Source: Desulfovibrio intestinalis
GTDB taxonomy: Bacteria > Desulfobacterota > Desulfovibrionia > Desulfovibrionales > Desulfovibrionaceae
Length of the DNA stretch: 64,000 bases
Reading direction: 5' to 3'
Assembly (NCBI RefSeq): GCF_014202345.1
Contig: NZ_JACHGO010000001.1
Coordinates: 372,001-436,000, forward strand
A program made the position numbers and the translations under genes. Below the pieces are notes generated by a model, which was given only the letters and a program-made list of their open reading frames with translations, ran no database searches and was not told the DNA's origin. This document shows positions 2,087 to 30,979 of this stretch, piece by piece; the first letter of the stretch is position 1, and every line of letters begins with the position of its first letter.

Positions 2087-2135
2087 TTTGGCTCCCCGAG
2101 ACGGACTTGAACCGCCAACCTAGTGATTAACAGTC
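2087..2135. other. attL: 49-bp tRNA-Asn 3' fragment
   Basis: These 49 bases are identical to 30902-30950. They cover the 3' part of tRNA-Asn from the anticodon loop to the encoded CCA. Identity ends abruptly at 2135/2136, next to the anticodon loop. The intact tRNA is at the other end of the element, so this copy is the displaced target half at the integrase-proximal end. Confidence 0.93.
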
Positions 2136-2288: not shown

Positions 2289-3509
2289 ATGAAGCTGACA
2301 AAAAGAGCTGTTGAGGCGCTGCAAGTCACAGGCAAGCGATATGGCGTTTTTGATAGAGATGTAACAGGCTTTGCTGTAAGGGTTGGAGCCTCCGGCGATA
2401 AATCTTTTTATTTGGTCTACAGGGCAGGGAAAGGGCGGGCGGCCACAAAACGGTGGCTTCGTCTAGGAACATTTCCGACGATGTCAGTTGAACAAGCCCG
2501 TGACATTGCCAAACAAAAAGCCGCGCAAGTTGCGCTTGGGGAGGATCCGGCAGAGCAGGTAAGTGAGTATAAAGTTGCCCCAACAATAAAAACAGCTTTT
2601 ATCTCTTTTTTTGAACAGCATGATACAAAGATCAAATCGAGCACCTCCGCAGCTTACCACCGGATAGCAGAGCAATATATTTTCCCCGCTATAGGGAGCA
2701 TCAAGGTCGCAGCCGTTCAGTATCGACAAGTTGCGTCCCTCCACTATGCGATGAAGGATACGCCGTACCAGGCGAATAGGATGGCGGCGCTGCTATCCAA
2801 ATTCTTTGGCTGGTGTGAAAAAAACGGATATCGGGAGCGCGGTAGCAATCCCGTTGTCGGCCTCGAGAAGTATGAAGAGCAAAAGCGTCAAGCCTTCATG
2901 GGGCGAGAGGAACTTGAAGCCTTGGGCAATGCCTTCCGCATCATGGAAACCCAAGGATATACAAACCCCAAAACGGGAAAGGTTACGACCTTTGATCCGA
3001 GCATTGCTGCAGCTCTCAAGGTGATGCTTTTTACGGGTGCGCGCTGCATGGAAGTACTTACGCTCAAGTGGGAGTATATCGACATCGACCGGAGCATTGC
3101 TAATTTGCCTGATTCAAAGACAGGGGCGAAGTCTTTGCACCTTCCTCCACCTGCTCTGGCCGTGCTGGCTGCTCTTCCGCGTATAAACGAATATTGTTTT
3201 CCGGGTAGAAGAGGAACGGGCCATATCGTGAACGTCAAAGATACATGGAGGCGACTTCTCGACACAGCCCGGCTCACAGGTTGGCGCATCCACGATTTAC
3301 GCCACGCCTACGCCAGTTATGCCGCATGCTCCGGCAAGAGTTTGCCTGTTATCGGAGCTATCCTTGGCCATACCCAGGCGGCGACAACAGCACGCTACGC
3401 TCACCTTGCGGATAATCCTGTCGCCGTTGCCGCAGCCGAAACCGCTGCGCAGATTCAGAAGGATTTTAGTGGGGGCAAAGTCTTGCCCTTCAAAAAGGCA
3501 GCTGAGTAA
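2289..3509 (+). CDS. Tyrosine integrase of the DUF4102 / P4-like group
   Basis: This 406-aa site-specific recombinase should integrate and excise the element at tRNA-Asn. Residues 1-90 form the DUF4102 arm-binding domain (LTKRAVEAL ... GVFDRDVTGFAVRV ... LGTFPTMSVEQAR). A SAM-like core-binding domain follows. The C-terminal catalytic domain carries the first arginine in TGARCMEVL, the H-x-x-R box HDLRHAYAS, and the LGHTQAATTARYAHL box with the nucleophilic tyrosine. All catalytic positions appear intact. The ATG at 2289 follows AGCAGGAG at 2271-2278. The gene lies between attL and BrnT and points inward. An AlpA-like gene near the other end (28770-28988) is the best candidate for its excisionase. 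Confidence 0.95.
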   Translation: MKLTKRAVEALQVTGKRYGVFDRDVTGFAVRVGASGDKSFYLVYRAGKGRAATKRWLRLGTFPTMSVEQARDIAKQKAAQVALGEDPAEQVSEYKVAPTIKTAFISFFEQHDTKIKSSTSAAYHRIAEQYIFPAIGSIKVAAVQYRQVASLHYAMKDTPYQANRMAALLSKFFGWCEKNGYRERGSNPVVGLEKYEEQKRQAFMGREELEALGNAFRIMETQGYTNPKTGKVTTFDPSIAAALKVMLFTGARCMEVLTLKWEYIDIDRSIANLPDSKTGAKSLHLPPPALAVLAALPRINEYCFPGRRGTGHIVNVKDTWRRLLDTARLTGWRIHDLRHAYASYAACSGKSLPVIGAILGHTQAATTARYAHLADNPVAVAAAETAAQIQKDFSGGKVLPFKKAAE

Positions 3510-6364: not shown

Positions 6365-6368
6365 GGCA

Positions 6369-7406: not shown

Positions 7407-7415
7407 AAGAGCCTC

Positions 7416-13276: not shown

Positions 13277-13861
13277 TCACCCTTCTCCATAGATGTACGG
13301 TTTCGCATTGCACATCGAAAGCGCCTTTTCCAAATGGCGCAAATCGGAAGGAGACACCTTCTGGTGCCTAGCGAACAACATCAAAACAATCCTTATTGAG
13401 GCATTGGAGCTTTCGGAGAACGGTTTGGAGGCAACATAAAGCAACGCTTTGCGTAAAGCGGTTTCCCATTTTAGAACTGTGCCATCCGCCACAACCACAA
13501 AACTGGCGTCGGCAGGGGACTTGAATAGTAAAATCTGACTTTTTGCCTCTTGTTCCACAAAGAGTGCTTGAATCCCTATCTTTTCCAAAATTATTGGCCC
13601 AAGATCGTCTGGGCGTTCCTCTTGTGTTTTATCTTTTGAATATCGATTGAGAATCGCGTCTTTAATATATGTGCGGACCTCGGCTTTTTTCATGTACTGA
13701 GACAATCTTCCTCCTACATTTGACATGGTGACCAGTTGCGCGAGGAAATTGCCGTTGTCTGTCCTAGAACGTGCGAGGTAATTAACTCGGTCAGCCTCTT
13801 GAAAGACGCATTCTTTTATCTCTTTAGCAATATCATCAGGAACCTTTTTGCTCATGACCAA
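13277..13861 (-). CDS. Unknown 194-aa defence-operon protein
   Basis: I do not recognise this protein. It is mostly helical in the first 90 residues (DDIAKEIKECVFQEADRVNYLARSR cannot be assigned to a family). A strand-rich middle follows (FVEQEAKSQILLFKSPADASFVVVADGTVLKW), then a helical end (IRIVLMLFARHQKVSPSDLRHLEKAL). There is no Walker, nuclease or membrane motif. It overlaps the helicase gene by 10 bp and directly abuts vsr, so it is made with them and is likely a structural or specificity part of the same system. It is a good candidate for an undescribed subunit. Confidence 0.75.
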   Translation of the reverse strand: MVMSKKVPDDIAKEIKECVFQEADRVNYLARSRTDNGNFLAQLVTMSNVGGRLSQYMKKAEVRTYIKDAILNRYSKDKTQEERPDDLGPIILEKIGIQALFVEQEAKSQILLFKSPADASFVVVADGTVLKWETALRKALLYVASKPFSESSNASIRIVLMLFARHQKVSPSDLRHLEKALSMCNAKPYIYGEG

Positions 13862-15549
13862 GCCTCCGTGTCAGGAAAAGCCAGACGTTCAGCGTCGTCT
13901 TGGTCCTGCAGGCTGGCCACATCATCAAGCCATGCATCCACGAACTTCTGCGCTTTTTCATTGCTAAACGTCACCACCCCGTTCCGCAGGAAAACCGTCT
14001 CAACTTCACCTGGCTTGGGGTCGGCCTTGGCCTCCTTGTCAAGCTCCTTGACCGCCGCCAATCGTCTTATATCCGTGACAAAGTCCAGTACAATGACTTT
14101 TTCTTTTCCTGGTGAGATCCTGAGCCCTCTACCGAGTTGTTGCACGAATATCCTTCTGGAGTGGGTAGCCCTTAAGAACACAAGGATATTCACGTCAGGC
14201 ACGTCAATACCTTCATTCAGGACATCGACCGCCGTAACCGCTTTGATTTTTCCAGATGAGAAATTCAACAGAACCTGTCGCCGTTTAACCTTGTCATCAA
14301 CAGACATGTTGGCTGCTGGAATGCCCGAGGACACCAGTTTCCCCGCGAATGTGTCCGCATGGTTTTTTGAGGGTGAAAATATCGCGATCCGTGGACGTTC
14401 CATGGATGCGGTCAACTCAAGAAGCTTGGCGATAACAGCGTCATCCCTCTGTGGCAGGAAAAGTCGCTTGTTAAGGTCTCGGATGGACAACGAGGTGCGA
14501 GCCAGTTTCGGAACTTGTCCCCAATCGATGTTGTCACACATCATCCGATAATCGACTTTGGCAAGGAACCCCATCCTCATGCCATCGACCAACGACACCT
14601 TTTCAATCGGCTCGCCAAAAATAGACTCAATCGATGTACCGTCGCCACGCCAGGGAGTGGCCGTCATGCCAATAAGAAGTTTTGGGGAAAGATGCTCAAT
14701 GCATGACGAAAAAGCGTTTGCCAAAGCGTGGTGGGCCTCGTCTACGATAATGAGATCAAAAGCGGTTGGCTCGATTCCTCCAAGATACCCAAACAGCGTC
14801 TGATACAGCCCGAAGTTGATTCCGTCGGAAGGAACAGGGGGCTCTCCATCCATAAATATTCTCGTTGGTATGTTTTTGGAAATCTGCGCCCAGAAAGATC
14901 GTTGGAGTTGAAAAGCCAAGTCTGTAGCGTGACATAGGACTAGTATCTTTTTTAGGCCAGTCGAATAAAGAAGGTCGGCGACCGATGAGGCGATGACGGT
15001 TTTTCCGAGTCCGGTCGCGACAACGAATAGCGCTTTTCTACGGCCACTGTGAAAACCCTTTACAACCGAGTCGACTATCTTTGACTGATATTCACGAGGC
15101 GACCTCTTTTCTTCACTGTATTCAGGCCATTTTGCAACAAGATCTGTCAGAAATTTTCCGTTCCAAAGCCTAACATCATACCCCTGTCTGTTGAGGTCAT
15201 CTCTTCTATCATACGCTGATTTTGTAAAGTCCCCATTTGTGGCAACGACTACCACTTTGGCTTTGTAGTAGGCTTGACCCTTGACGGCTTGATCGACAGC
15301 GGACTTGCCAACATAAGAGTACGAATTGACCGCTTTGACTTGTATGAGGTATGAATCGTCAATGCCTTTCGTGGGGTTCGCTCTCACTGCTAAGACGTCA
15401 GCCCCTTTGTCTCCACTCTCACCAACATATTGGATATTTTTCCAACCGCAGTGCAGCAATAACCTGGAGACTGCGAGCTCAAGAGCTCTCCAGTCTCCTC
15501 CCGCCATTACAGCCTCAGTCAGGAAAGTCGCATTCTGTGGTTCACTCAT
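13852..15549 (-). CDS. Mrr-like nuclease fused to SF2 DEAH helicase
   Basis: This 565-aa protein has two parts. Residues 15-140 are an Mrr-type restriction nuclease domain: E24, then GDKGAD (D51) and LIQVKAV (Q70, K72) give the E...D...QxK site. Residues 150-500 are a superfamily II motor: PREYQ (Q motif), ATGLGKT (178-184), DEAH (270-273), MTATPWRGD, and the motif VI-type segment QQLGRGLR. Such fusions cut DNA while translocating on it. It overlaps the GHKL gene by 4 bp and the 194-aa gene by 10 bp. In the operon it is the most obvious restriction effector, as the GHKL protein and methyltransferase carry no nuclease motif. Confidence 0.9.
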   Translation of the reverse strand: MSEPQNATFLTEAVMAGGDWRALELAVSRLLLHCGWKNIQYVGESGDKGADVLAVRANPTKGIDDSYLIQVKAVNSYSYVGKSAVDQAVKGQAYYKAKVVVVATNGDFTKSAYDRRDDLNRQGYDVRLWNGKFLTDLVAKWPEYSEEKRSPREYQSKIVDSVVKGFHSGRRKALFVVATGLGKTVIASSVADLLYSTGLKKILVLCHATDLAFQLQRSFWAQISKNIPTRIFMDGEPPVPSDGINFGLYQTLFGYLGGIEPTAFDLIIVDEAHHALANAFSSCIEHLSPKLLIGMTATPWRGDGTSIESIFGEPIEKVSLVDGMRMGFLAKVDYRMMCDNIDWGQVPKLARTSLSIRDLNKRLFLPQRDDAVIAKLLELTASMERPRIAIFSPSKNHADTFAGKLVSSGIPAANMSVDDKVKRRQVLLNFSSGKIKAVTAVDVLNEGIDVPDVNILVFLRATHSRRIFVQQLGRGLRISPGKEKVIVLDFVTDIRRLAAVKELDKEAKADPKPGEVETVFLRNGVVTFSNEKAQKFVDAWLDDVASLQDQDDAERLAFPDTEAWS

Positions 15550-17918
15550 TCCAGGAGTCCTTCCAACAGAGACAGTGTGTTCGCGTGCCTCAAAAGTTCT
15601 TGTTTGCTCTGCGTTCTTCCGCCCTGAAGAAGCAAAATAACATCGGAAAAATAGGACAGGACCCGTTCAAGGGAGTTTTTCCGCAACCGTTCACGCATCG
15701 CCTCATTACCAATCTTTAGGTCGGCAAAAGGCTGCGCGAAAAGCTTGTTGTCCATAAACTCTTCCGGAAATTCGGCTATCAGCCGTTTTATAGTCGTGTC
15801 GCAAACAAACGCCAGGGACTGAATCGATTCTTCACTGGAGTCTTGATAGGCACCGAGCAGATTTGGAGCCTCATCAAGCAGGCGTTTTGCCAGTTCTTCC
15901 TCTTCAGCTTCAACAGACTGAATAACTTCTTTTACCTTGGCAAATCGATGCCCGAGCAAAGAAGGCAGCTTTTCGCGTATTGACAAAACAATCGAATGCG
16001 CCCGTTCTTGTAGAGCTTGGGGATTGATCCGTTCTTCAAGCAAATGATTGTCAACGAGCCCAATAAACGCCGCTTGAATAGACACGCCAGGATCACGGAG
16101 CGCAAACTTTTCTGCCAAGCCCTGCAGCAACAATTGCTTAGGGGAAAGTGGATACTCGGATAGAATTGGATGAGTCGGATCGAAAAAGAAATCAACCTCG
16201 ATTCCATCCTGATAAAGGTGACATGGCACTCTGCTTCCTTGGATTTTGATTTGGCTGTCACGCACTCTCCAGGCGGTTATTTCCATTCCGGGAGTTGTGT
16301 CGTAAGAGTATTTTCCTGACAATGATTCCTCTTTGTCAGAATGCTGAATCAAGAGATCTCTATCAGAAGTCGCCGGAACGGGAGCCACAGTAGGTGCTGG
16401 CAGTGCTGGAGTACTGACAGAGGGGGCAGCATGAGAGCCAGTTCCAGATTGAGCGCCGGGCAAATAGCTAGAAATGTCATCTGACGGAGTCTCTCCAGAA
16501 TTTACCGGAGTCAATCCTTTACCGCCATCCCCCCGTTCTCTGTCTGATTCCTGAGCGACCTTGTACCACTTATCATCGGTTTCGTACTCCAAGTCCCCGG
16601 AAAAGAAACGCTTGGCGAATTCTCTCGCCAATGAATTAGGAACCGCGAGATTTTTTGTGCCAGGGTCTGTTCTTCTGTATGCGTTAACCAATCTACCGAG
16701 AGGAGACTCGTTGTCCCCATCGTATCCCAAAGCTTGCCTTTTCTTGGGAAGAATCGGTCCAGCGCCTCGAACGGCTTCCCGTGTGAGTCGCCATGCTCTG
16801 TCTGTGATATCAAACCCATTCTTTTGATACGTCGGGATCAGGTAATCAACATGGAGCTCGCCAACGATTCTCCCGCCAACAGTCGATCCTAGTTCGACTG
16901 GGTATTCAGACGTGTCAGTTCCTGTATCCGGATTTTCATAGCCGAAAAGGGATTTGTCGGAAACCAATATTTTCCGTCCGTTACGAACAAAATCCACACC
17001 AAAATCAGATGGGTCGGCATACCGCTGAATACCAATCCAACCCTTAAGCCGACGGGCACGTTTGACTATGTGTGTCGGAAAAACACCACCTTTACTAATC
17101 GATACATCGAGATCAGCGGCTTCGTCTTCGGTCAGGTAGCGATTTTTCAGAGAGTCGAAGTATGTCTCTCCGAGGTCTCGGTTTATTCTTTGGATCGCCT
17201 CTACTCGAACCCCTTTACGAACCACAAACCTTGAATCGCTCCAAACGCAATGTGGACGGGGGGAAAGCTGCTTTCCCTGTACAAATATTGAAACCTTTTT
17301 CCTGCTGAGTATCGGTGTGTAAATTGTCTCCAACTGTCTTCTTATCGCGCTTTCCTTTTTCCTTATTTCCGCGAAAACACCGTCCTTCAAGCTCTTGACA
17401 ATTATTTTAGTGCCGGATTCGTCAGGCGTTTTTTTGGGTTCCCTAACAACAGGAGCGGAAAAGGTTTGTTCCTTTATCAATTGTTCAAAACTGATTTTAA
17501 TTCCAACCCATTCAGTTCCATCTGGAGTCGCCGAAAGGAAAAGGGTTTCATCTCCAAGTCGGGCAGTGGCGATATTGAAACCCATTCCAAATAGTCCAAG
17601 GTTGTGGATGGGATCGTTGCTTGAATACCCCGCCTTGGCAGCTTTCTGGAGGACTTCGAGTTCCATGCCGAGACCGTTGTCCTGAACGACAATTTCTCTA
17701 TCATAAGCGGCGACAGAATCACTGGACCAATGGATATCGACCCTGGGGCCATTTATAACTTTCCCCTTGTTTTCGGCCTCAGAAAAAGCGTCCAGCGAAT
17801 TGTCGGTCAGTTCCGCCAAGCATTGCCAAGCGGCAAACGGAATGTCACCCAACGTTCTAAGGATTTTCGGGGTGGGTGTGATGTCGACGACTTGCGTTAT
17901 TAGCGACTCTGATTTCAT
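15546..17918 (-). CDS. MORC/MutL-like GHKL ATPase of an R-M system
   Basis: This 790-aa protein carries a full GHKL ATPase module at the N-terminus: N-box LAELTDNSLDAF (E36, D39, N40), G1 VQDNGLGM (D80), G2 GLFGMGFN (108-115) and a later GTKIIVKS. An S5-like fold should follow. The C-terminal half has a Ser/Pro/Thr/Gly-rich linker (about 460-530) and a helical end, with no endonuclease motif. It resembles the MutL-like ATPases that occur with DNA methyltransferases and helicases in bacteria and are thought to be ancestors of eukaryotic MORC proteins. These are expected to clamp DNA in an ATP-dependent way. It overlaps the methyltransferase gene (ATGA) and the helicase gene by 4 bp each. Confidence 0.85.
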   Translation of the reverse strand: MKSESLITQVVDITPTPKILRTLGDIPFAAWQCLAELTDNSLDAFSEAENKGKVINGPRVDIHWSSDSVAAYDREIVVQDNGLGMELEVLQKAAKAGYSSNDPIHNLGLFGMGFNIATARLGDETLFLSATPDGTEWVGIKISFEQLIKEQTFSAPVVREPKKTPDESGTKIIVKSLKDGVFAEIRKKESAIRRQLETIYTPILSRKKVSIFVQGKQLSPRPHCVWSDSRFVVRKGVRVEAIQRINRDLGETYFDSLKNRYLTEDEAADLDVSISKGGVFPTHIVKRARRLKGWIGIQRYADPSDFGVDFVRNGRKILVSDKSLFGYENPDTGTDTSEYPVELGSTVGGRIVGELHVDYLIPTYQKNGFDITDRAWRLTREAVRGAGPILPKKRQALGYDGDNESPLGRLVNAYRRTDPGTKNLAVPNSLAREFAKRFFSGDLEYETDDKWYKVAQESDRERGDGGKGLTPVNSGETPSDDISSYLPGAQSGTGSHAAPSVSTPALPAPTVAPVPATSDRDLLIQHSDKEESLSGKYSYDTTPGMEITAWRVRDSQIKIQGSRVPCHLYQDGIEVDFFFDPTHPILSEYPLSPKQLLLQGLAEKFALRDPGVSIQAAFIGLVDNHLLEERINPQALQERAHSIVLSIREKLPSLLGHRFAKVKEVIQSVEAEEEELAKRLLDEAPNLLGAYQDSSEESIQSLAFVCDTTIKRLIAEFPEEFMDNKLFAQPFADLKIGNEAMRERLRKNSLERVLSYFSDVILLLQGGRTQSKQELLRHANTLSLLEGLLE

Positions 17919-18961
17919 TTCACGCCCTCCAGATATTTGGCGATAGCTCTTGCAACTTTATTTCCCAGAATCGGCGGTACGGCGTTGCCAATTTGCATGA
18001 TGTTAGACGTGGCCGAATGGGGAAAATCAAAATTGTCGGGAAACGTCTGCAACCTGGCACACTCGCGGACAGTCAACCGTCTATCAAGAGAGTAGTGAAA
18101 CTGCACACGGGACTTCGCGTTCGCCCTGATTGTGTATGAAGGCGAATCGGCTGGTGTGGTCTCGTCTCCTTGGCCATTTCCTTTTTTTGCTCTTGACGCT
18201 CTGAAATATTGCGACTGGTTTGGAATTGAATCGTCCGATATCCCTTCAAGATCTTCTATCGCCCAGCGAGTCGTCCTGTAGTGTTCCTCGGTGTGAGTTC
18301 TCTTAGGCATGACCGGAAACCCCTGCAAATCGTCTCTGACCGCCACAATGAAAAGTCTCGTCCTCCTCTGGGGAACGCCATAATCTGGAGCAAAAAGAGT
18401 CCAAACCTCGACCCTGTATCCGGCCGAAGCGATGTCCTGTTTTATCGTATTTAACACATCTCCTTGTTTCATATTGGCGAGACCTGGAACATTTTCACCG
18501 ATGACGACAAGGGGTCTGTGAACCTCCATGTATTGAATCAGTGCTTGGTACAACCTTCCACGGGTGGACTTCAGCCCATGACGTGGCCCGCACGTGGCGA
18601 AATCCTGGCAAGGGAATCCCCCTATCAAAACTTCGGCGGCCGGAACTTCAATAGGGTTATAGCTGGATAGGTCCCGAACTTCTGCGTGATCAGAAATATT
18701 CTTGAGGTATGTCTGAACGCACTTGTCATCATGGTCATAAGCGGCGAGAAGTTTGAATGGAAGCTTGGGGACTTTGGTGCCCTTGTACGAAAAGCCCCCG
18801 AGAAACCCCAAGTCAAGCCCTCCGCATCCGCAAAAAAACGAAACCACGGACCTTTCTCGCATAGACGAGAGCGTTTCTTCCCCTGGTTGAGGTATGGAAG
18901 GGCTTCTTTTCTTATCTAGCAGCATCACTGGTTCCTGTTCATATAACTCAACTGTTTCCAT
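17915..18961 (-). CDS. C5-cytosine DNA methyltransferase
   Basis: This 348-aa enzyme has the ordered C5-methylase motifs: I FFCGCGGLDLGF (42-53), IV GGFPCQDFA with catalytic C118, VI ENVPG (156-160), VIII PQRRTRLFIVAVR, and IX/X RECARLQTFP and QIGNAVPP. The segment before VRECARLQ is the target-recognition region and sets an unknown site. It would mark host DNA and protect it from the nuclease-helicase encoded downstream. It is the first intact gene of the operon. The ATG at 18961 lies 5 bp after the stop of a gene remnant (18967-19001) and has only a weak ribosome site, so it was probably coupled to that lost gene. Confidence 0.95.
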   Translation of the reverse strand: METVELYEQEPVMLLDKKRSPSIPQPGEETLSSMRERSVVSFFCGCGGLDLGFLGGFSYKGTKVPKLPFKLLAAYDHDDKCVQTYLKNISDHAEVRDLSSYNPIEVPAAEVLIGGFPCQDFATCGPRHGLKSTRGRLYQALIQYMEVHRPLVVIGENVPGLANMKQGDVLNTIKQDIASAGYRVEVWTLFAPDYGVPQRRTRLFIVAVRDDLQGFPVMPKRTHTEEHYRTTRWAIEDLEGISDDSIPNQSQYFRASRAKKGNGQGDETTPADSPSYTIRANAKSRVQFHYSLDRRLTVRECARLQTFPDNFDFPHSATSNIMQIGNAVPPILGNKVARAIAKYLEGVK

Positions 18962-19085: not shown

Positions 19086-19934
19086 TCAGGCTGCCTTTAC
19101 AAGCCCCTGTTCGTAGTAAGTGTCCGGAGGCAAGCCGCCTAAGCGGCTGTGAGGCCGGAGCCGATTGTAAAAGTCGATCCACCTGCCGATTCCGGCACGA
19201 GCTTCGGAGCCGGTTTCAAAAGCGTGCAGATACACACATTCATACTTGAGCGAGCGCCAGAGGCGTTCGATGAAGACGTTGTCCAGCCAGCGGCCACGGC
19301 CATCCATGGAAATGCGGATACCGTTCTCCTGCAAGACATTGGTAAACGCGAAGCTGGTGAATTGGCTGCCTTGGTCGGTGTTGAAGATATCGGGCTTGCC
19401 GTGTTTCGCCAAGGCTTCTTCCAGGGCCGCGACACAAAAATCCGCATCCATGGTGTTGGAAAGTTTCCAGGACAGCACCTTTTTACTGTGCCAGTCCATA
19501 ACGGCCACCAGGTACAAAAATCTTTTGCGCATGGGGATGTACGTGATATCCGCGCACCAGACTTGATTGGGTCTGGTGATGGACAATCTCCGCAAGAGAT
19601 ACGGGTAGCGCGTATGCTCTGGATGAGGAATACTGTTTTTGGGCTTCTGGTACACCGCCATCAGCCCCATCAGGCGCATAAGACGCCGAACGCGTTTTCT
19701 GCCCACGCCATAGCCCAGCAGTACCAGATAATCACGCATCTGGCGCACTCCCAGGAACGGCCATTCGGTAAAGGCTCTGTCGATTTCCTGCATAAGAGCA
19801 AGAGTCAGGGCCGATTCGCCTTTGGGCACATAATACAGGCCGGAACGGGCTATTTTGAGCAGAGCGCATTGACGAACCATACTGAGCTGCGCATGGCTGG
19901 AATCAACCATGCTTTGCCTGCGGGAGACGCTCAC
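19086..19934 (-). CDS. IS3-family transposase OrfB (rve integrase core)
   Basis: This 282-aa protein has the helix-turn-helix HTH_21-like start (QCALLKIARSGLYY). The DDE integrase core follows: aspartate in VWCADITYIP, aspartate in FNTDQGSQFTS, glutamate in FIERLWRSLKYE. The C-terminus ends FYNRLRPHSRLGGLPPDTYYEQ. The frame is complete and starts at a GTG overlapping the orfA stop by 4 bp. Normal IS3 elements make the active enzyme as an OrfAB fusion, and orfA here is frameshifted, so this copy may not transpose. Confidence 0.93.
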   Translation of the reverse strand: MSVSRRQSMVDSSHAQLSMVRQCALLKIARSGLYYVPKGESALTLALMQEIDRAFTEWPFLGVRQMRDYLVLLGYGVGRKRVRRLMRLMGLMAVYQKPKNSIPHPEHTRYPYLLRRLSITRPNQVWCADITYIPMRKRFLYLVAVMDWHSKKVLSWKLSNTMDADFCVAALEEALAKHGKPDIFNTDQGSQFTSFAFTNVLQENGIRISMDGRGRWLDNVFIERLWRSLKYECVYLHAFETGSEARAGIGRWIDFYNRLRPHSRLGGLPPDTYYEQGLVKAA

Positions 19935-20214
19935 CGCTTCCCCCAGACTTCTGCTAAAAAATCTCGTTCCACGGTGAGTTGACCGATTTTGGCATGAAGT
20001 ACCTGGAGTTGTTTTTCCTTCCTGGCCTCTTCGGTCTTGATTTCACCTGTAAAAATACCGGCTGCCGACGCCTTGAGCTGCTTCACCCATTTGTGGATGA
20101 GGTCTGATGGACGCCAAACTCGGCGCTGAGTTCGGCAACGGTTTTCTCACCGGAAAGGGCAGCCAAAGCCACCCTGGCCTTGAACGCCGGGGCATGATTT
20201 TTTCTCTTGGACAT
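19931..20214 (-). pseudogene. IS3-family OrfA, one-base deletion
   Basis: From the ATG at 20214 the frame reads MSKRKNHAPAFKARVALAAL and continues to VHQTSSTNG and a stop near 20091. Adding one base near 20101 restores the expected IHKWVKQLKASAAGIF and runs cleanly to the TGA at 19931, with the leucine-rich LQVLHAKIGQLTVERDFL segment. The helix-turn-helix half is intact, and the coiled-coil half is out of frame. Confidence 0.85.
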
Positions 20215-20606: not shown

Positions 20607-21422
20607 CTATTGCTTTGGTATAATCACTTCAATCGCAGTCCGCATTTTTTCAAGTGCTATTATCAGTCCCTGTTTTTCTTCATCTGTAAGCTCAGTCTTT
20701 ATTTTTGAATGCATTTTTTCGTAAGATACGTTGAGGTCTTCCGTCATTCTTTCGATTTTACGGATATGTGCATTAACAAAACGGTTTCCGGTTTTCTTGT
20801 TTCCTTGAGATTTTTCAGAAGATTTTCTAGGTGCGTTCTCTGGCTTTTCAAGCATATGACACAGCTTGTTATACGTCTTTTTCTGAATATCAGCATCCTT
20901 ACGGCGAGCGACCTTCAACAGGCGCTCGCGGGTCATATAGGGCTTTGTTCTGGCGTCATTCCGAATTTTTTCAGGGAGTGACGCAATTTTTAATATTTCA
21001 CTCGTGGTACTTTTTTTCTTGCCAATTATTCTCGCAATGTCATCATTTGAGCAATTTTTTTGCTTTTGCAAGGCTGCTACAGATTCAGCAAACTCAATGG
21101 CTGTCAAGTCAGACCGAAGGATGTTTTCCATCAAGGCCAGGGTCAAGAGATCACCTTCAACATACTTGCCTTCTATTACTTCCTTTCCCAACTGATTGTG
21201 CGCCCGTACTCGCCTTTCTCCAGAGATGATTATCAGCTTGTCCTCATGGCAGGTAAACGTGATATTTTGCAAAAGGCCATTTGCTTCAATGTCTGCTGCA
21301 AGTGCCTTGATCTCACCTTCATCAAAGTATTTTCTAGGTTGCTCTGGGGTAGGTTGCAACTCGTTTATATTTATTGGGTATACCTTGCCAATTTCGTATT
21401 TTCTATTCAGAGGTTCGGACAT
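20607..21422 (-). CDS. ParB-like partition protein
   Basis: This 271-aa protein has the ParB/Spo0J fold: NINELQPTPEQPRKYFDEGEIKAL, the CTP-binding GERRVRA motif near residue 70, ENILRSDLTAIEFA, and the helix-turn-helix SNDDIARIIGKKKSTTSEILKIASLP that reads parS. The C-terminal region is lysine-rich and helical. No ParA is present nearby, so it is either a lone segregation factor or a DNA-binding regulator. GGGAGG precedes the ATG at 21422. A 36-bp palindrome lies 33 bp upstream of the start and overlaps the likely transcription start, which points to autoregulation or a parS-type site. Confidence 0.87.
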   Translation of the reverse strand: MSEPLNRKYEIGKVYPININELQPTPEQPRKYFDEGEIKALAADIEANGLLQNITFTCHEDKLIIISGERRVRAHNQLGKEVIEGKYVEGDLLTLALMENILRSDLTAIEFAESVAALQKQKNCSNDDIARIIGKKKSTTSEILKIASLPEKIRNDARTKPYMTRERLLKVARRKDADIQKKTYNKLCHMLEKPENAPRKSSEKSQGNKKTGNRFVNAHIRKIERMTEDLNVSYEKMHSKIKTELTDEEKQGLIIALEKMRTAIEVIIPKQ

Positions 21423-22017: not shown

Positions 22018-24936
22018 TCAAAAATCATTATCGTCAACGGTCTGATACACAATTGAAAGCTTTTCCCCTAAAGGCAAAGGACTCTCAATAATACCAGCCG
22101 CAGATTCACCGTACAAATTGTCTCTGATAATAGCGAACCCCCTTGGCCGATTATCGTTACAACCTTGCCAGAACTGCTCTCGCACTTCACCGTCCTTGGT
22201 CAGAATCAACAGCCCTTTCTCTTTCAGATTAGTGACAAGAGATTTATACTGAAAATCCTTACAGATCACGGCTACTGTGTATGTACGGGGGATAAAAAAG
22301 CAGTCTTGGTTATCTGCAGCAAGCCTCTTGATTGGGTAGGTGTCGCCAACTTTCCCGTAGAACTCAGCACGGGCCAGAGACAGGAGCTTCTCTGTTGCTT
22401 TTTCAATCTCAAAGTCTACCGCACCATTTCTGTCCCGGAGCCACCAGTCAAAGCAATGCTTCATAGCGGCCATTGCTTCTCCAGTCGACCAGGGCAGTAT
22501 GTTGAGACGTATGGCGATTTCACCTACACCAGCCAGGAAGGCAAAATGATTGGTTACTCGCTTAGATTGTGACGACAAGGTGATGCGGTCAAATCCGTCA
22601 AGGAACTGATCCATATGCTCACTGACCGCATCACAAATTTTATCCTGGTCGTCTTTGATGTGCTGGATCATAGCCCGTAATGGGGCGCCCCGGTATTCTT
22701 TACTGTTTTGTACCAGCATGTCGGAAAATTCTCCGGCAGGCATGCCATTAGGTATGATCGTGAAAGTACCGTGACCAGCACCACCGTCTGCGAGGATGCT
22801 AACAACGCGCACCTCATGACCTGCCATGGCTTTATTCCTATAACCCTGATCAGCACGATCAGATATGGACACTTCGCCTGAAGACAGAAATGTCAAATTC
22901 CACGTCGGTACACGACGGCTGACACCGGTCTTTGAAGAACGTGATTTGCCTTGGCCATTGGCAAGCATATAGGCTGCCTGGGCCACCACATCAGGGTCAC
23001 ATTGGTTGATTTCATCAAGCAAAAGGCAGTTGTCGTTATGTTGTTCCGCTATGCCTTCGAGTCCGTTGTCTGTTGTTCGCCATGACTTAAGCTCACCGCC
23101 AGTGACAGAGCCCGCAATATAAAGGCTCGTCGTCTTGCCGCTGGAAGAATTGCCATAAAGATGAATGCCAAAACCTGAATGTCTCATGAGCGTCAACAAG
23201 GGGCCGGACAGGGCCGCAATAATCGTCACCTGCAAAAGGGGGTTGCTCTCGCAATACCTCCCCACATGCTCTTTCCATTCTTCGAGTGTTCCCTTTGACT
23301 CAAACAGCTTGGACGCCACAGGGAAGCGGGAGCATAGATACTCGCATTGGCCGTGCTGAGTTCCCAGATCAAAAGGTACAAATTTATTGGCCTTTTCAAC
23401 CCAACCATTTTTCTCAACAATCAAAGCCCGCTGCTTTGGGATTGCCTTGTTGAGGTACTGTATAAGCCGCTGGCGGGGCAGTCTGCCTGGTTCCAGTAGC
23501 AAACCTGCTTCCGACAGGAGCGCAAGAGCTTCTTCACCTGAACCATTTAAGGATGTGAAGGGTACTAGGCACTGATGGAGTATGTCGTCAGGATCGCGCA
23601 CTTCAATAATTTTTGACCAACCACAACTTTCAGCGTCACGAGCAGAAGCCTTTACTTCAAGTGATGAAGAGATTTTTTCATAAGTGGTTTTGTCGCTGGC
23701 ATCTGGATAAAACACAAGCCCTTCGTCCAGTACGGCAAAGGCATCAACTTCGAGAGTCGCAGCGAGCTTTCGCCGATAAATATCCATAGGGCATTTTACC
23801 CGGCAGTCGCCTGAACAAGGGAATACTTTTTGGACCTCTTTGCAGGTGATGATGGGATAATTGCGGGCATTATCCAGCTTCTTTTGTGTTTCTTCTTCAT
23901 TATAGCGGTGCGGATCAAGCTGACTGTATATGTGGAACAGCTTTTGCCCCATCGCTCCACAGTGAGCCATAATCTTGGCGAGCACAAACCATTGGGGCTC
24001 TGTAACCTCACCCGCATGCTGGGCACAGAAGGTCACAAATTTACATTCTGTTTCAAGGCTTGCAATCTGACTATTGGCATTGCGCCTGTCGCTGGAAAGA
24101 CAAACAAACTTTTTGGCTTGTAGGTAAACTTCTTCCAGCATGGGAGCGCACGTGATACCATTCCGGCTTCCTTCCCCTTCAATATGCCGATCTTTCTTGA
24201 CGAGTTCCTCAAAAAAGGAAGCCCCATTGTGCATGATCTCGTCACATGTCACCGGCACCTTGTAATTGCCGTCAGCCCGTTGAATGTGGGGCAGGCGTAT
24301 GAGCTGGCCTTTGCCTCCCTTGAATCCGTTTGGGTCGATACAAAGGTCTTCAGGGGCCAATTTATGGCGATCTTTGAGCGCACCAAAGACAGTACCATCC
24401 CAGAGCTCCTTATGGGCAAAAAGATTCAGAATGGAATCAAGGGTACGCCTGTAAATGGCAGGCAACTCAATATCACCAGCTTCTGAACCTATAAGCTCTC
24501 GTGGGATAACCACATGGAAGCCCTTGCCGCCACTGGCGTAATAATGCAACTGGTTGGGGTTCACGTCATATTTTTGGGTAAGCAGCCTGCTGAAAATGCG
24601 AACAGCTTCAAGCGCCTTACCAATATCACCCACCTTGCCCAAAGAAATGCCATCGTTATCAAACAGCTCTTTCTTGGCATCGAAGTCTAACACCATGTCA
24701 CCGTAGCGCATGGGCTGAGCTTTGCCTTTTTCAAAAGGGTGACTGAATTCGTAAATAGAAATGGCTGTATAGCCGTCAGCTACTGCTTCTCTGATGCCTT
24801 CTTCTGAGGCAGGGTATTCTCTCCATTGCCGAGGCATTTCCGCAAAGTCTGCGTGTTCCTGATCAGCATGGCCCGCGTAGACTATCCGTTCTTCCTTTTG
24901 TCCTGTTGGCGTTGAGGAACCATTCAAGCTTTCCAT
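22018..24936 (-). CDS. AEP-type primase fused to a DUF927 ATPase
   Basis: This 972-aa replication protein has an archaeo-eukaryotic primase domain in its first 350 residues: VLDFDAK gives the metal-binding D84-x-D86 and ASGGKGFHVVIP the nucleotide-binding S-x-H motif (135-141). A cysteine cluster near residue 380 (TCKEVQKVFPCSGDCRVKCP) may bind zinc or Fe-S. The C-terminal part is a DUF927-like motor: Walker A YGNSSSGKTT, Walker B CLLLDEIN, and a sensor region ending FLSSGEVSI. It would prime and unwind plasmid-type DNA. The ATG at 24936 has GGAG 5 bases upstream. Repeats on both sides of the gene suggest that it acts at a local origin. Confidence 0.85.
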   Translation of the reverse strand: MESLNGSSTPTGQKEERIVYAGHADQEHADFAEMPRQWREYPASEEGIREAVADGYTAISIYEFSHPFEKGKAQPMRYGDMVLDFDAKKELFDNDGISLGKVGDIGKALEAVRIFSRLLTQKYDVNPNQLHYYASGGKGFHVVIPRELIGSEAGDIELPAIYRRTLDSILNLFAHKELWDGTVFGALKDRHKLAPEDLCIDPNGFKGGKGQLIRLPHIQRADGNYKVPVTCDEIMHNGASFFEELVKKDRHIEGEGSRNGITCAPMLEEVYLQAKKFVCLSSDRRNANSQIASLETECKFVTFCAQHAGEVTEPQWFVLAKIMAHCGAMGQKLFHIYSQLDPHRYNEEETQKKLDNARNYPIITCKEVQKVFPCSGDCRVKCPMDIYRRKLAATLEVDAFAVLDEGLVFYPDASDKTTYEKISSSLEVKASARDAESCGWSKIIEVRDPDDILHQCLVPFTSLNGSGEEALALLSEAGLLLEPGRLPRQRLIQYLNKAIPKQRALIVEKNGWVEKANKFVPFDLGTQHGQCEYLCSRFPVASKLFESKGTLEEWKEHVGRYCESNPLLQVTIIAALSGPLLTLMRHSGFGIHLYGNSSSGKTTSLYIAGSVTGGELKSWRTTDNGLEGIAEQHNDNCLLLDEINQCDPDVVAQAAYMLANGQGKSRSSKTGVSRRVPTWNLTFLSSGEVSISDRADQGYRNKAMAGHEVRVVSILADGGAGHGTFTIIPNGMPAGEFSDMLVQNSKEYRGAPLRAMIQHIKDDQDKICDAVSEHMDQFLDGFDRITLSSQSKRVTNHFAFLAGVGEIAIRLNILPWSTGEAMAAMKHCFDWWLRDRNGAVDFEIEKATEKLLSLARAEFYGKVGDTYPIKRLAADNQDCFFIPRTYTVAVICKDFQYKSLVTNLKEKGLLILTKDGEVREQFWQGCNDNRPRGFAIIRDNLYGESAAGIIESPLPLGEKLSIVYQTVDDNDF

Positions 24937-25064
24937 GACAACTCCTGATAAGTATGCGTGCGATAGTCGTTCAGGGCCAGAATGGTCTGCATCGGGCTAT
25001 TACACATATACTAATCAGCAGAAATGTATTTTTTAATTTTGTTTTTGAGGAAGCGTGTTTTTAC

Positions 25065-25094
25065 GCTGTGCGAGGTGTGCGAGGTGTGCGAAAG
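25065..25094 (+). repeat. Three 9-bp iteron-like repeats upstream of the primase gene
   Basis: TGTGCGAGG occurs twice in tandem followed by TGTGCGAAA, inside 24937-25367, a 430-bp stretch with no gene. The unit matches the repeats at 21970-22003 in inverted orientation. Confidence 0.6.
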
Positions 25095-25361
25095 CCAATA
25101 CACCTGAAAAGGTGGGGTGGGGAACAAAAATTTTGCACAGCGCTGTGTGGAATATTAGCATCGCCTTGTGCGGCTACAACTTCTGGAATGTTTTCATTCA
25201 GCCCAACTACAGGGGCCAAGGTGTTCACGCTCATGGAGGCATAGGCATCTTGTAACTCATCCCCCACAAATCAAATTGCATTTAACGCCTTTTTGCCCTC
25301 CCCATGTAAAATGGATACTAGCTTAACATGCTGAAATGCTTATCAACGACTTTTTTCGGAT

Positions 25362-25512
25362 CCTGCATGCAGGCTATTTTGCAGGGTAAATGCAGGCAAC
25401 AATGCAGGAACGTTTCATTATAATGCAGGCCAAATGCGAGAGAGGTGCAGGCTTGACATCTAACTTCGCACTCAACGCAGAAGGCGCTTGCAGGCCGATG
25501 CAGGAATGCAGG
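25362..25512 (+). repeat. Iteron-like array: nine TGCAGG units (candidate oriV)
   Basis: TGCAGG begins at 25368, 25380, 25391, 25403, 25424, 25446, 25489, 25499 and 25507, all in the same orientation, with a CCTGCATGCAGG palindrome at the start. Four of them share AATGCAGG and spacings of 11-12 bp recur. It occupies a 745-bp region without genes between the primase and the RepA-like genes. Confidence 0.65.
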
Positions 25513-25582
25513 TTGCTGCTTCCGACGGGACACTGCGTCAGGCCAAGCAATATGCGCAATACTGTTGTGTTAAAGACAAAAA

Positions 25583-25614
25583 AATAGCGCGTGACCCGAA
25601 AGCCACGCGCTATT
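25583..25614 (-). terminator. Rho-independent terminator of the RepA-like gene
   Basis: AATAGCGCGTG pairs perfectly with CACGCGCTATT (10-nt loop) and is followed on the minus strand by seven T. It lies 19 bp past the frame-restored stop at 25633. Confidence 0.88.
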
Positions 25615-25681
25615 AAGAATAGGCGGACAGAACTAATTTTTTACGCGATATCCCTGTTGGGAGCCGAAGTTTCCGTTGGGT

Positions 25682-28231
25682 TCAAGAAGTCCGCGTTCCT
25701 CTAAGCTTTTTTGTGAGGTTACGGGCTTTTCTGTCACTACAACCCAGTTCCTGCGCGATATCAGCGGTTTTAACCGTTCCTGCAATCTTGGCCATGTCGT
25801 ATACCGACTTTTCGTCGGAAGACAGTTGGTCAAGGATCGCTATATCCTCAGACTTAGGCGCATTAATTGAGGGGGCGTCTTGAACTATAAGATCAACCTT
25901 CGGCTTAGAGCAGACTTGGGCAAACTCAATTTCCTTCCCATCTGCTCCGGTAGCGGCCAGGAACTGCCACTCTGAAGCCCCAAACGACAAGTGCAGCCAA
26001 AAGGATTTCTTATCAAGAACTGGAGCAGGCTTGCTCGCGTCAAACCGTATCCCCACAGTCAACCCATCCTGTGCCGCTTTAGTTTGGGCTATTTTCGGTG
26101 CGACACTATTATTCAGTATTTCTGAGCTACTTACGAGAGTAATGACCGTTCTGGCCAGGGTGGTGTAGAGATGGCTGCCTCTTGCTTGAACACCATGCTG
26201 GGGAGTTCCTACATCGGTCGTTTTGTGGTGAACAAGCACCACACACAGCCCATGGCTTTGCAACATTTTGACCCAATCGAGCAAGGTTTCAGCCGCCTTT
26301 CCGTGATGTACGCCGTCGCCCATCAAGGCTGTGAGGTTGTCCAAAACAACGACGCGGCATTTATTTTTTAGGAGGTAGGTGGCTAAACCTTCGCGAAATA
26401 CTGCATCCGTCAAAGAAAAGGTATTGCAAAAACCTGGGAGGTGAGGATCGAACCTCGACAGCCCAAAAAAACGGGTGCCGCATACTTCGGTAAGGCCGTG
26501 CTGCTGTTGGTTGGCGCAAAATTCATCATAGGGCGTTTCTGCGTCAATATAGGCAACATTGCCAGCGCTAACCCCATTTCCACTAAATAAAGGCCATGTC
26601 GTGTTGCCATAGATGCCCCCACGGCAAACAGACATCGCAAACTGAGTTTTTCCAGACCCCTTAGGCCCCACGAGCGCAACAAGGCTACCTGGGCGTATGA
26701 TGTGGTAAAGCGATACTATATCTAAGCTGTGTGCAAGCGGAGGTGTCAGAGCGGGATCCGCAGTTGGGAGCGAGTATGATTGCCCCGTTGGCGATACTTT
26801 GCTGGTTTTGTGGGATCCTTTGAAAATGTTCAAGCTTTGCCCCCATGCCACGAATTCATCGTAGGAAACGCCCTGCTTGACCACCTGTTCCATCAGCCAC
26901 GTGGGACGCTCAACGGTATCAAGCCATACCGATTTATGCAGCAGTTCTTCCTCGGCATCTGTGATGCCTTCCACATGGCCTATTAGGTCACGACCTGGCT
27001 GGGAATGCAGAAGAAAGCCAGAGTAGATACGGAAACTCTTAGCCTGTGCACCCGCACTGTAATCCTTGTACAATTTGACCAGCGCCATGCATTTTTTTGT
27101 CGGAGCATGGATAAACACAACCTCATGACCATAAAAATAATTCCAGGGAAGCACGGAAAGGTCAGTGCCCAAATGGGCCGTCACAATGAATTTTTCGGGG
27201 TCGTAACCTCGCGCTTCGCCAAGCATACGCTCAAGGGCAAGGGCTGTGCGCATGTCTTGGCAAAAAATAATTTTGGCAAACTGGTGCTTGTCCATGAGGT
27301 GCTGATTGAGGAAGTGGGCTGTCGGCTTGTATTTTCCCACGCAAAGAACCCCATGACCAACCGTGGCAGGCAGACAGAAATCACTTCCATTCAACTGATA
27401 GCGCAGGATGGCTCCGATTCTCTGCCCGGCATTGCCGTAGATGTACCTTGTCTCCATCAACTCAGCGCAAGCCGATCCAGTCGGAAGCCCAGGCAGATGA
27501 AGAGTGTCTGGCACGTCTTCGATTGGCCGCGATCCACCATTCAATTCAACAGCGTGTCTATCACTGGAAAGCTTAGAAAGGTTATCAAAGCTCATGCTCA
27601 GGATATTGGCCAGAGTCGCCAAGGCGTCCATGTGGGACAAGCTATAAACAATGCCAAGCAGCTTCGCCCATGTCCTGCCTGTGGTTCTGCCGTGGTTAAG
27701 GGCCCACCTCAGTTCGTTATCTGGCCCAAGCTCGCCAGAAACCGTCATGCTCTCACGGCCATGGCTTTCCTTGATATTCAAAAGCGCATGAAGATTGGCA
27801 TTGCTGCCGGAAGCGAACTGGCAAGATGCCTCCCGCTCAAGAAGAGCTTCAAAAACAGCTGCCTTGATCAGGTCGTCATCCGGGGCATAGGTATTCGTGA
27901 CATTAGACATACTGAACGCCCTGTTAAAGGCAGAAGAGAACGAATCCTTTCCTGCCAGGGCAATGCCCTTTTCAGTTGTATGGGCCTGCTTGCGAGCAGG
28001 CCAATTGTCGATGAATCTTTCCAAATACGCGCGAGTGTAAGGCGCCGGAGTAAGTGAGGCTGGATAGCCGTGGCAACAACGGCTTGAAGGCGCAACCCTT
28101 GCCGTAGTATCAATAGTCATTTTGGGCACTGAGGCAGGAACATTGTAGTGGCAATCGAGTTGGCAAACCCTTCTGACTGGTTGGCCGGTCTCCACTGCTT
28201 CGTTAATCATCTCTCGATAATAAGGGGGCAT
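25682..28231 (-). CDS. RepA-like RecA-fold ATPase with TOPRIM-like N-half
   Basis: This 849-aa protein has an N-terminal region of unknown function. A segment around residue 320 (AKIIFCQDMRTALALERMLG) is reminiscent of a TOPRIM fold. The C-terminal half is a RepA/AAA_25-type hexameric ATPase: Walker A ALVGPKGSGKTQ, an acidic YIDAET motif, Walker B RVVVLDNLTAL, and VVLVHHKTT. The end, TADIAQELGCSDRKARNL, is a winged-helix start. The ATG at 28231 has GGAG 7 bases upstream; the longer frame lacks one. After a run of six A the frame ends early (RGTRTS), whereas the +1 frame continues the winged helix to 25633. With the primase it forms a plasmid-type replication pair. Confidence 0.8.
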   Translation of the reverse strand: MPPYYREMINEAVETGQPVRRVCQLDCHYNVPASVPKMTIDTTARVAPSSRCCHGYPASLTPAPYTRAYLERFIDNWPARKQAHTTEKGIALAGKDSFSSAFNRAFSMSNVTNTYAPDDDLIKAAVFEALLEREASCQFASGSNANLHALLNIKESHGRESMTVSGELGPDNELRWALNHGRTTGRTWAKLLGIVYSLSHMDALATLANILSMSFDNLSKLSSDRHAVELNGGSRPIEDVPDTLHLPGLPTGSACAELMETRYIYGNAGQRIGAILRYQLNGSDFCLPATVGHGVLCVGKYKPTAHFLNQHLMDKHQFAKIIFCQDMRTALALERMLGEARGYDPEKFIVTAHLGTDLSVLPWNYFYGHEVVFIHAPTKKCMALVKLYKDYSAGAQAKSFRIYSGFLLHSQPGRDLIGHVEGITDAEEELLHKSVWLDTVERPTWLMEQVVKQGVSYDEFVAWGQSLNIFKGSHKTSKVSPTGQSYSLPTADPALTPPLAHSLDIVSLYHIIRPGSLVALVGPKGSGKTQFAMSVCRGGIYGNTTWPLFSGNGVSAGNVAYIDAETPYDEFCANQQQHGLTEVCGTRFFGLSRFDPHLPGFCNTFSLTDAVFREGLATYLLKNKCRVVVLDNLTALMGDGVHHGKAAETLLDWVKMLQSHGLCVVLVHHKTTDVGTPQHGVQARGSHLYTTLARTVITLVSSSEILNNSVAPKIAQTKAAQDGLTVGIRFDASKPAPVLDKKSFWLHLSFGASEWQFLAATGADGKEIEFAQVCSKPKVDLIVQDAPSINAPKSEDIAILDQLSSDEKSVYDMAKIAGTVKTADIAQELGCSDRKARNLTKKLRGTRTS

Positions 28232-28243
28232 TTTTTTCTCCGT

Positions 28244-28280
28244 GAGCATGAGAAGCAGGCAACGCCTGCTTCTCATGCTC
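28244..28280 (-). promoter_or_regulatory. 17-bp perfect hairpin before the RepA-like gene
   Basis: GAGCATGAGAAGCAGGC and its exact complement flank an AAC loop. It ends 12 nt before the start codon and begins 6 bp after the stop of the 76-aa gene. No T run follows on the minus strand, so it may control translation or RNA processing, not terminate. Confidence 0.6.
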
Positions 28281-28286
28281 TTAGGT

Positions 28287-28517
28287 CTAGGATTTTTTAG
28301 GGTAAACACAAGCGGTAAGTACGGGTTTCCAGTTCAACTGCCACTCGATATAGTCAATTTTGGCCATATCTTCCGGAGGGAGCTGAAGCGCCTCATGAAT
28401 TTCTTCTCTGAAGCTGAAAATTGCGTTACGTGTATCATGATCCATCATTTTCGGATTATAGCTTTGAGCACTAGCGGTGTTCATGCTAAGCGGTGCTGTA
28501 GGTTTTTCATTTGACAT
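28287..28517 (-). CDS. 76-aa protein upstream of the RepA-like gene
   Basis: The protein reads MSNEKPTAPLSMNTASAQSY and continues into a helical segment (NAIFSFREEIHEALQLPPEDMAKIDYIEWQLNWK). It has no motif that I recognise. An in-frame ATG 9 codons earlier exists; the one at 28517 has GGA 9 bases upstream and is only modestly better. It is 55 bp upstream of the RepA-like gene on the same strand, separated by the perfect hairpin, so the two may be cotranscribed. It could be a replication control protein; nothing in the sequence shows it. Confidence 0.55.
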   Translation of the reverse strand: MSNEKPTAPLSMNTASAQSYNPKMMDHDTRNAIFSFREEIHEALQLPPEDMAKIDYIEWQLNWKPVLTACVYPKKS

Positions 28518-28769: not shown

Positions 28770-28988
28770 CTAGTTGATGGGATCAATTTGACGCGCCAGC
28801 ATATATTTGACGATCTCAGCCTCAGAATAACGGACAAGACGAGCGCCAACCTTTACATATGGTAGGCCAGTCCTATTGAACCGCTGCTTCTGAAGGGTGC
28901 TTCTGCTTATGCCAGTACGCTCTTCAACCTGCTTTTCTGTGAGCCAACGATTTGGGCTGGGTTGGATATTTGCCACAGACACTTTCAT
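28770..28988 (-). CDS. AlpA-like helix-turn-helix regulator or excisionase
   Basis: This 72-aa protein has NRWLTEKQVEERTGISRSTL followed by QKQRFNRTGLPYVKVGARLVRYSEAEIVKYML. That is the MerR-like helix-turn-helix with the LPY-K-G-RLVRY wing typical of AlpA and Xis proteins. AAGGAGG stands 2 bases before the ATG at 28988 and 8 bases before an in-frame GTG at 28982, so the GTG may be the true start. It is the only Xis-type gene in the element and lies 1.9 kb from attR. It probably directs excision with the integrase or switches the replication genes. Confidence 0.82.
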   Translation of the reverse strand: MKVSVANIQPSPNRWLTEKQVEERTGISRSTLQKQRFNRTGLPYVKVGARLVRYSEAEIVKYMLARQIDPIN

Positions 28989-29024
28989 CACCTCCTTTTC
29001 AAGATGTTGTTTGCATAGTAGCAT

Positions 29025-30901: not shown

Positions 30902-30950
30902 TTTGGCTCCCCGAGACGGACTTGAACCGCCAACCTAGTGATTAACAGTC
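30902..30950. other. attR: 49-bp repeat inside intact tRNA-Asn
   Basis: It is identical to 2087-2135. Here it forms the 3' part of the complete tRNA gene, from the anticodon loop onward, with three extra T beyond the CCA. Confidence 0.93.
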
Positions 30951-30979
30951 ACCCGCTCTGCCAATTGAGCTATCGGGGA
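30904..30979 (-). tRNA. tRNA-Asn (anticodon GTT)
   Basis: The 76-nt gene on the minus strand starts TCCCCGA and ends TCGGGGA-G-CCA, so the acceptor stem is perfect and CCA is encoded. The anticodon loop is CTGTTAA with GTT, and the T arm GGCGGTTCAAGTCCGTC is standard. It is the integration target of the element. Confidence 0.97.

Follow-up and report, generated by a model that had tools for sequence, protein, structure and literature searches.

A candidate replication origin of TGCAGG repeats downstream of an AAA_25 helicase-like gene in an integrated element of Desulfovibrio intestinalis

Iterons of classical theta plasmids are about 17-22 bp long and nearly identical, and the IncQ plasmid RSF1010 brings a RepA helicase, a primase and iterons together. 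The initiator helicases SaPI Rep and SCC Cch2 use their C-terminal domain to bind short iterons directly downstream of their own gene (PMC7581432). In SCCmec, the helicase Cch2 binds 5-nt direct repeats downstream of its gene and has the primase CCPol-MP as its partner (PMC7581432). The iterons of PICIs are located 3' of rep, as two sets around AT-rich DNA, and E. coli PICIs carry an AlpA-type protein (PMC6092414). The PrimPol-PV1 supergroup comprises integrated elements, many of them in tRNA genes, in which primases are fused to DUF927 or RepA-type helicases and a winged helix has been suggested to recognize the origin (PMC5862659). The origin of pRN1 lies just 3' of the gene for a replication protein that ends in a winged helix (PMC4234260), and the PLE satellite combines iterons with a RepA_N protein (PMC7145576).

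In this study, we analysed a stretch of DNA of 64,000 nucleotides (the window) in which an initial annotation had proposed a replication origin of the theta-plasmid iteron type, formed by TGCAGG repeats between a primase gene and a RepA-like gene. Comparison supports a candidate replication origin at this site, but not one of that type. No initiator of the Rep_3/pSC101 kind was found among the neighbours scanned, those flanking the array being AAA_25 and DUF927 genes; the units share only 6-7 bp, and long near-identical iterons are not present; and the array follows a helicase-type gene on its 3' side, like the iterons of SaPI, PICI and SCC elements.

The locus resembles SaPIs and PICIs in its short direct repeats directly 3' of a presumed initiator gene, its integrase-bearing integrated element and its AlpA-type protein. 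Unlike in these islands, however, the array adjoins the gene of an AAA_25 protein (RecA fold) and is followed by that of a separate DUF927 primase-helicase, the gap between the unit clusters has 51% GC rather than being AT-rich, and a family-wide core is present. No SaPI-type Rep is located beside the array; a DUF927 protein related to 8tch lies on its far side. Because both the AT-rich gap and an array-adjacent SaPI-type Rep are missing, the element was not classed as a PICI. With SCCmec it shares a helicase-type gene followed by short direct repeats, a partner primase and a DUF927 region that matches 5dgk and 8tch, but the array follows the RepA-like gene rather than the DUF927 gene. It differs from PrimPol-PV1 in that the match of its primase domain is below the Pfam cut-off, and the available part of PMC5862659 describes no origin for that supergroup. 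The pRN1 origin is a stem-loop without iterons, whereas the fold of the window DNA is unremarkable (z 0.30). RSF1010 differs as well, since no RepC-type protein is found among the scanned neighbours and the units share 6-7 bp. Neither the core nor an AAA_25 initiator with downstream iterons is described among the open-access titles and abstracts listed.

The integrated element and its replication genes

The locus belongs to a 28.8-kb element (2087-30950) bounded by a 49-bp direct repeat that is the 3' part of tRNA-Asn (Table 1). Its integrase and the direct repeats flanking it in a tRNA gene identify it as an integrative element. Pfam scans of 19 proteins of the element gave no recombinases other than the integrase, an IS transposase and an ERF recombinase, and no capsid or conjugation genes were recognized among these proteins. 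A row of CobT/VWA, DUF3150 and AAA_5/CbbQ_C genes at 4661-8876 forms an unexplained module. The row at 12812-18961 is cargo of defence type, with a Vsr nickase, a 194-aa protein, an Mrr-helicase, a HATPase_c protein and a C5-type methylase (type II). The transposase at 19086-19934, inside the element, has rve/HTH_21 domains, and we take it to be IS3-like. Several related elements are present in the same genome (G000): the primase has homologues at C5 (90%) and C12 (32%), RepA has homologues at C9 and C12, and C3 carries a decayed RepA.

Table 1. Positions of the features of the element and of the candidate origin in the window
Feature	Position	Strand	Remark
49-bp att repeat, copying the 3' part of tRNA-Asn	2087..2135		
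Tyrosine integrase	2289..3509	+	left end of the element
ParB-like protein	20607..21422	-	rival candidate binder of the array
Primase-helicase, DUF927 helicase domain	22018..24936	-	plus sub-threshold archaeo-eukaryotic primase match
Tandem 9-bp GTGCGAGGT repeats	25068..25091	+	primase leader
DnaA-box-like TTTTGCACA	25131..25139	+	consensus match only
Intergenic block, 202 bp	25160..25361		99.5% identical to G046; flanking genes 88%
Conserved core ATTTCAGCATGTTAAGCTAGT	25317..25337	-	family consensus atAataATtTCAgnatgtTaAaCTAGt
CCTGCATGCAGG palindrome	25362..25373		one inverted and the first direct unit; CCTGTATGCAGG in closest relative
TGCAGG array, nine units (CCTGCA on the element's coding strand)	25368..25512	+	candidate element-specific iterons
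Terminator-like hairpin (intrinsic)	25583..25614	-	between repA and the array; one of 2 such sites, against a shuffle mean of 0.9
RepA-like gene, AAA_25 domain	25682..28309	-	relatives have a C-terminal winged helix; in the window the frame changes close to the end
HTH_17/AlpA-like small protein	28770..29024	-	excisionase candidate, near the right end
Second 49-bp att repeat, at the tRNA-Asn gene (30904-30979)	30902..30950		

The setting, with integrase, att repeats, primase-helicase and RepA, is typical of an element that replicates or once did. Its cumulative GC skew has a maximum at 12,445 and a minimum at 27,881, or at 24,945 without the ORF at 29.25-30.7 kb, and the skew range exceeds that of block permutations (fractions 0.001-0.003). 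The unmasked minimum is 2.4 kb away from the array, and the skew agrees loosely with an origin near 25 kb.

The protein called "RepA-like" in the initial annotation is helicase-like, matching Pfam AAA_25 (RecA fold) with an E value of 5e-13, and the neighbour proteins scanned with Pfam include no Rep_3-type match. A sequence search against solved structures gave no match for it, and no relatives were found in the plasmid collection or the viral contigs. A winged helix was detected in the relatives as a Pfam TrmB match (5.3e-6) of one C-terminal fragment. In a two-sequence model of RepA the C-terminus takes the order H-H-H-E-E at a pLDDT of 62-85, within a whole model that is poor (mean pLDDT 30); folded alone, the C-terminal fragment reached a pLDDT of only 53. 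Near the C-terminus (25682-25720) the frame of the window RepA departs from that of its relatives, through either a real mutation or a sequencing error, and the winged helix loses its wing. Since the wing is missing, the window copy may be inactive.

The next-door primase-helicase matches DUF927 at 2e-63 and an archaeo-eukaryotic primase at 0.019, a weak match below the Pfam cut-off. By sequence, its DUF927 region is related to 5dgk ("Active helicase") and to 8tch ("Pathogenicity island protein"), and no relatives of the protein were found in the viral contigs. Five close primases were compared, namely that of the window and four homologues at 87-90%, and the leader of each of the five contains one to three exact units of GTGCGAGGT. 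These 9-bp repeats are a candidate operator or a candidate second part of the origin. The AT-richest DNA (25000-25049, 80% AT) adjoins them rather than the array, and both this stretch and the DnaA-box-like sequence (25131) are more than 200 bp away from the array.

The array, its neighbouring core and their conservation

The units of the array start at 25368, 25380, 25391, 25403, 25424, 25446, 25489, 25499 and 25507 of the + strand, at successive spacings of 12, 11, 12, 21, 22, 43, 10 and 8. These counted positions bear out the initial annotation, which had reported nine same-strand units in 145 bp with a recurring spacing of 11-12 bp: such a spacing occurs three times, and 21, 22 and 43 are near multiples. 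The length of 745 bp given there for the gap between the two genes (24937-25681) is also correct. Within it, the array lies 170 bp past the RepA-like gene and 432 bp upstream of the primase gene, and it consists of two clusters of six and three units separated by 37 bp (19 of 37 G/C by hand count). An opposite-strand copy at 25362-25367 makes, with the first direct unit, the adjacent palindrome noted before. The palindrome is present in the window (CCTGCATGCAGG) but not kept in the closest relative, G046, which has CCTGTATGCAGG there.

The array is the densest 6-mer cluster of the window, with nine copies in 150 bp against five for the next one when array-overlapping 6-mers are set aside. The maxima per 150 bp in 60 order-3 Markov copies of the window were 3-5, compared with the nine observed. 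The word itself is not enriched: 75 copies were counted on both strands of the window versus 63.7 expected (sd 8.1), and 9 of 100 shuffles reached at least 75. Three TGCAGG with gaps of 0-30 gave five matches in the genome (3.44 Mb, 16 contigs), all of them within the array, and the backwards control gave none. A structured RNA at the locus was rejected because all Rfam matches were below threshold, as was a structured DNA because the single-strand fold was nothing unusual (z 0.30).

In the closest relative (G046:C313), eight CCTGCA units are retained, partly at other places and with changed spacers and spacing. The nucleotide identity between the window and this relative is 88.0% in repA and 87.8% over the first 1290 bases of the primase gene, compared with 57.1% in the outer and 89.7% in the inner array. 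A cis-acting DNA is indicated because the word is conserved, the outer spacers change and the neighbouring intergenic block is nearly frozen. Part of that block (25160-25361) is similar to the beginning of a short coding sequence of relatives (MSxNTLxPVVG); past this point the relatives diverge.

Only two of the five close primase loci, those of the window and G046:C313, have a TGCAGG array, and both carry this RepA (79-82% at the amino acid level). At C5 a different ORF of 728 aa is located where repA would stand, and the other two loci have no RepA match beside the primase. The array therefore goes with repA. A tie between array and primase was rejected, as the close primase homologues keep the leader but mostly without the array. 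A TGCAGG triple with gaps of 4-6 is found in 11 of 288 family genomes, but a position beside this repA is established for those of the window genome and G046 alone. Among seven other places, the array of L191 overlaps an ORF of carbamoyltransferase type.

Relatives of RepA were found in 28 of 348 genomes of the class (profile search, E 1e-20). The 3' sides of 22 loci with RepA homologues were compared, leaving out ten profile matches without loci. The pattern TCA-N10-CTAG is present 100-400 bp 3' of the RepA homologue in 16 of the 22 loci, and the remaining six have no core. It was noticed by eye, and the statistical test came afterwards: among all patterns of a 3-mer, a gap of 4-15 and a 4-mer it was the most shared, being found in 11 of 17 non-redundant loci as against 5-7 in 40 shuffle sets. 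The core around it, about 25 bp long, is the most conserved part of the region and was overlooked by the initial annotation. A strict form of the core matched 6 of 345 genomes. Four of these matches are at the 3' regions of RepA genes (window, G046, G001 and G052), and the other two, inside ORFs of 633 and 455 aa, were judged to be chance. The reversed strict pattern had no match in the 345 genomes.

The 177 bp before the core were examined for periodicity in 10 non-redundant relatives, a set that excludes the window and G046. Peaks were observed at lags of 11, 21-22, 32-34, 44 and 53-55, and the summed z at 11, 22, 33 and 44 was 14.7, a value reached by none of 1000 shuffles. The 180 bp after the core showed no periodicity (788 of 1000 shuffles reached the score). 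By the same statistic, G046 alone is marginal (27/1000) and the window alone is not significant (187/1000), because its spacings are 11, 12, 21, 22 and 43. No exact array rising above the level of shuffles was detected at C9, at C12 or at any of 16 further RepA loci. The closest case is G025, in which an 8-mer near TCTCGCCA occurs five times at spacings of 11, 11, 33 and 11, a count that equals the shuffle maximum. Since exact arrays are absent from these relatives, only the summed phasing argues for iterons there. The missing exact arrays spoke against an origin before the core and the phasing were recognized. We read these relatives as probably having phased repeats that are specific to each element and partly degenerate, next to a common core.

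Hexamer arrays in viral contigs, plasmids and phages

TGCAGG as a special, widely used iteron was rejected, as arbitrary hexamers make similar arrays. Exact triples spaced by 11 bp were found in 22 stretches of the viral contigs for TGCAGG, 43 for GGACGT and 64 for TGACGG, and many 6- and 12-bp tandems were among the matches listed in the first TGCAGG scan. TGCAGG and the two arbitrary hexamers alike form arrays phased at 9-12 bp, which are often interrupted by a single gap of about 32-66 bp. Of 36 non-coding viral arrays with at least five units, 14 have a P4-alpha/D5-type primase gene no more than 800 bp away, and all 14 are on the 3' side of the gene. These 14 belong to about six sequence lineages and are therefore not independent events. 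For the other 22 arrays, no primase was detected in this range. The same range around the 36 arrays contains 38 genes, 25 of which were scanned against PHROGs or Pfam; the other 13 were judged only with a custom profile or from their resemblance to scanned genes. A stricter scan covered 244 loci (2.12 Mb) and asked for at least six units of any hexamer. Here, 6 of the 33 non-coding arrays were at most 500 bp from a primase-type gene, versus 1.0% of the sequence, an enrichment that is inflated because the profile was seeded with eight array-adjacent primases, L205 was counted twice and L092 and L093 look like one phage.

Viral arrays are also located beside transposase, antirepressor, DnaB, DnaC and terminase genes or inside an O-like initiator gene. 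An array alone is thus no proof of an origin, because many of them sit elsewhere. The iterons of lambda lie in gene O, and an unrelated viral contig has a TGCAGG array inside the gene of an O-like replication initiator (L126:5829-5973). DUF927 matches were obtained in 63 plasmid and 28 phage records, from which six replicons were chosen, two of them read in part. Arrays lie directly 3' of the DUF927 gene in three of the six, phiAH14b, pMNOD05 and pSR-7, and those of pMNOD05 and pSR-7 overlap small annotated genes. The circular plasmid pMNOD05 has two mirrored hexamer arrays (L342:1639-1749 and 19924-20034), with spacings of 9, 9, 66, 21 and 21, 66, 9, 9.

Proposed origin function and alternative explanations

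We consider that the array is probably (with a probability of about 0.65, judged from sequence comparison) the element-specific half of the element's candidate replication origin, tied to RepA. The best reading of the locus is that element-specific iterons for RepA, placed beside a family-wide core, would make up a variant of the SaPI/SCC layout. We infer that RepA is the binder, that the DNA opens at the core and that the element is excised and replicates. RepA, with its helicase-like RecA fold, would use its C-terminal winged helix to bind the hexamers, these serving as sites phased at 11 bp along a single face of the DNA, and the bound protein would open or mark the neighbouring AT-leaning stretch at the core ATTTCAGCATGTTAAGCTAGT. 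Loading and priming would then fall to the DUF927 primase-helicase of the next gene, and the excised 28.8-kb circle could thus replicate.

A partition site and an operator are the main rivals of this reading. As a partition site (centromere), the phased repeats would be bound by the ParB-like protein and would serve to keep the excised form. The ParB-like gene is 4 kb from the array, and some partition sites are known to contain direct repeats in phase. However, that gene goes with the primase-AlpA module. L196 has the primase and an ORF that by eye looks like the ParB-like protein, but no TGCAGG array or adjacent RepA match, and in L040, L041 and L042, which have RepA and the core, no ParB-like ORF was recognized by eye. 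A role in partition is therefore unlikely in our judgement. We assign a similarly low probability to an operator at which a repressor or an AlpA-type activator would control transcription of the primase gene or of repA. The array is indeed upstream of the primase gene, at 432 bp, and the element encodes an AlpA-like HTH protein, but the 9-bp repeats, which are closer to the primase gene and occur as one to three exact units at each of the five primases compared, are better candidates for such a site. In addition, a terminator-like hairpin lies between repA and the array, and no sigma-70-like promoter was found in 24900-25700, although shuffles give only 1.1.

It is very improbable that the TGCAGG cluster is a relic or a local expansion without function. 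The RepA of the window copy is altered near its C-terminus and the outer units are within fast-changing DNA, as would be expected of a relic, but eight units persist in G046 despite the changed outer spacers, and the neighbouring block is 99.5% identical. The least probable explanation is that array and core together are a site of recombination or dimer resolution rather than of initiation. Although the core is short, directional, non-coding and similarly placed among loci, the att repeats are elsewhere, no inverted half-sites were seen by eye in the listed cores, and the recombinases among the 19 scanned proteins are only those named above.

Taken as an origin, the locus may represent a replicon family in which AAA_25 winged-helix initiators would read element-specific, 11-bp-phased repeats 3' of their own gene, beside a core (atAataATtTCAgnatgtTaAaCTAGt) that would be the common start for the partner primase-helicase. 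We give this wider proposal even odds. No description of such a family was found in the open-access literature searched. In such a family, a new repeat word together with a kept core would let co-resident elements avoid cross-replication.

If the proposal is true, the origins of many cryptic integrated elements would be findable 3' of the helicase gene, as phased repeats with a core. The logic of SaPI and SCC, in which an initiator helicase reads its own downstream iterons, would extend to a different helicase fold. The elements would also offer a natural system for the co-evolution of a DNA-binding domain and its repeats, as several related ones share one genome. Genetic tools for sulfate reducers are few, and the minimal replicon predicted here may be a possible vector for these bacteria.
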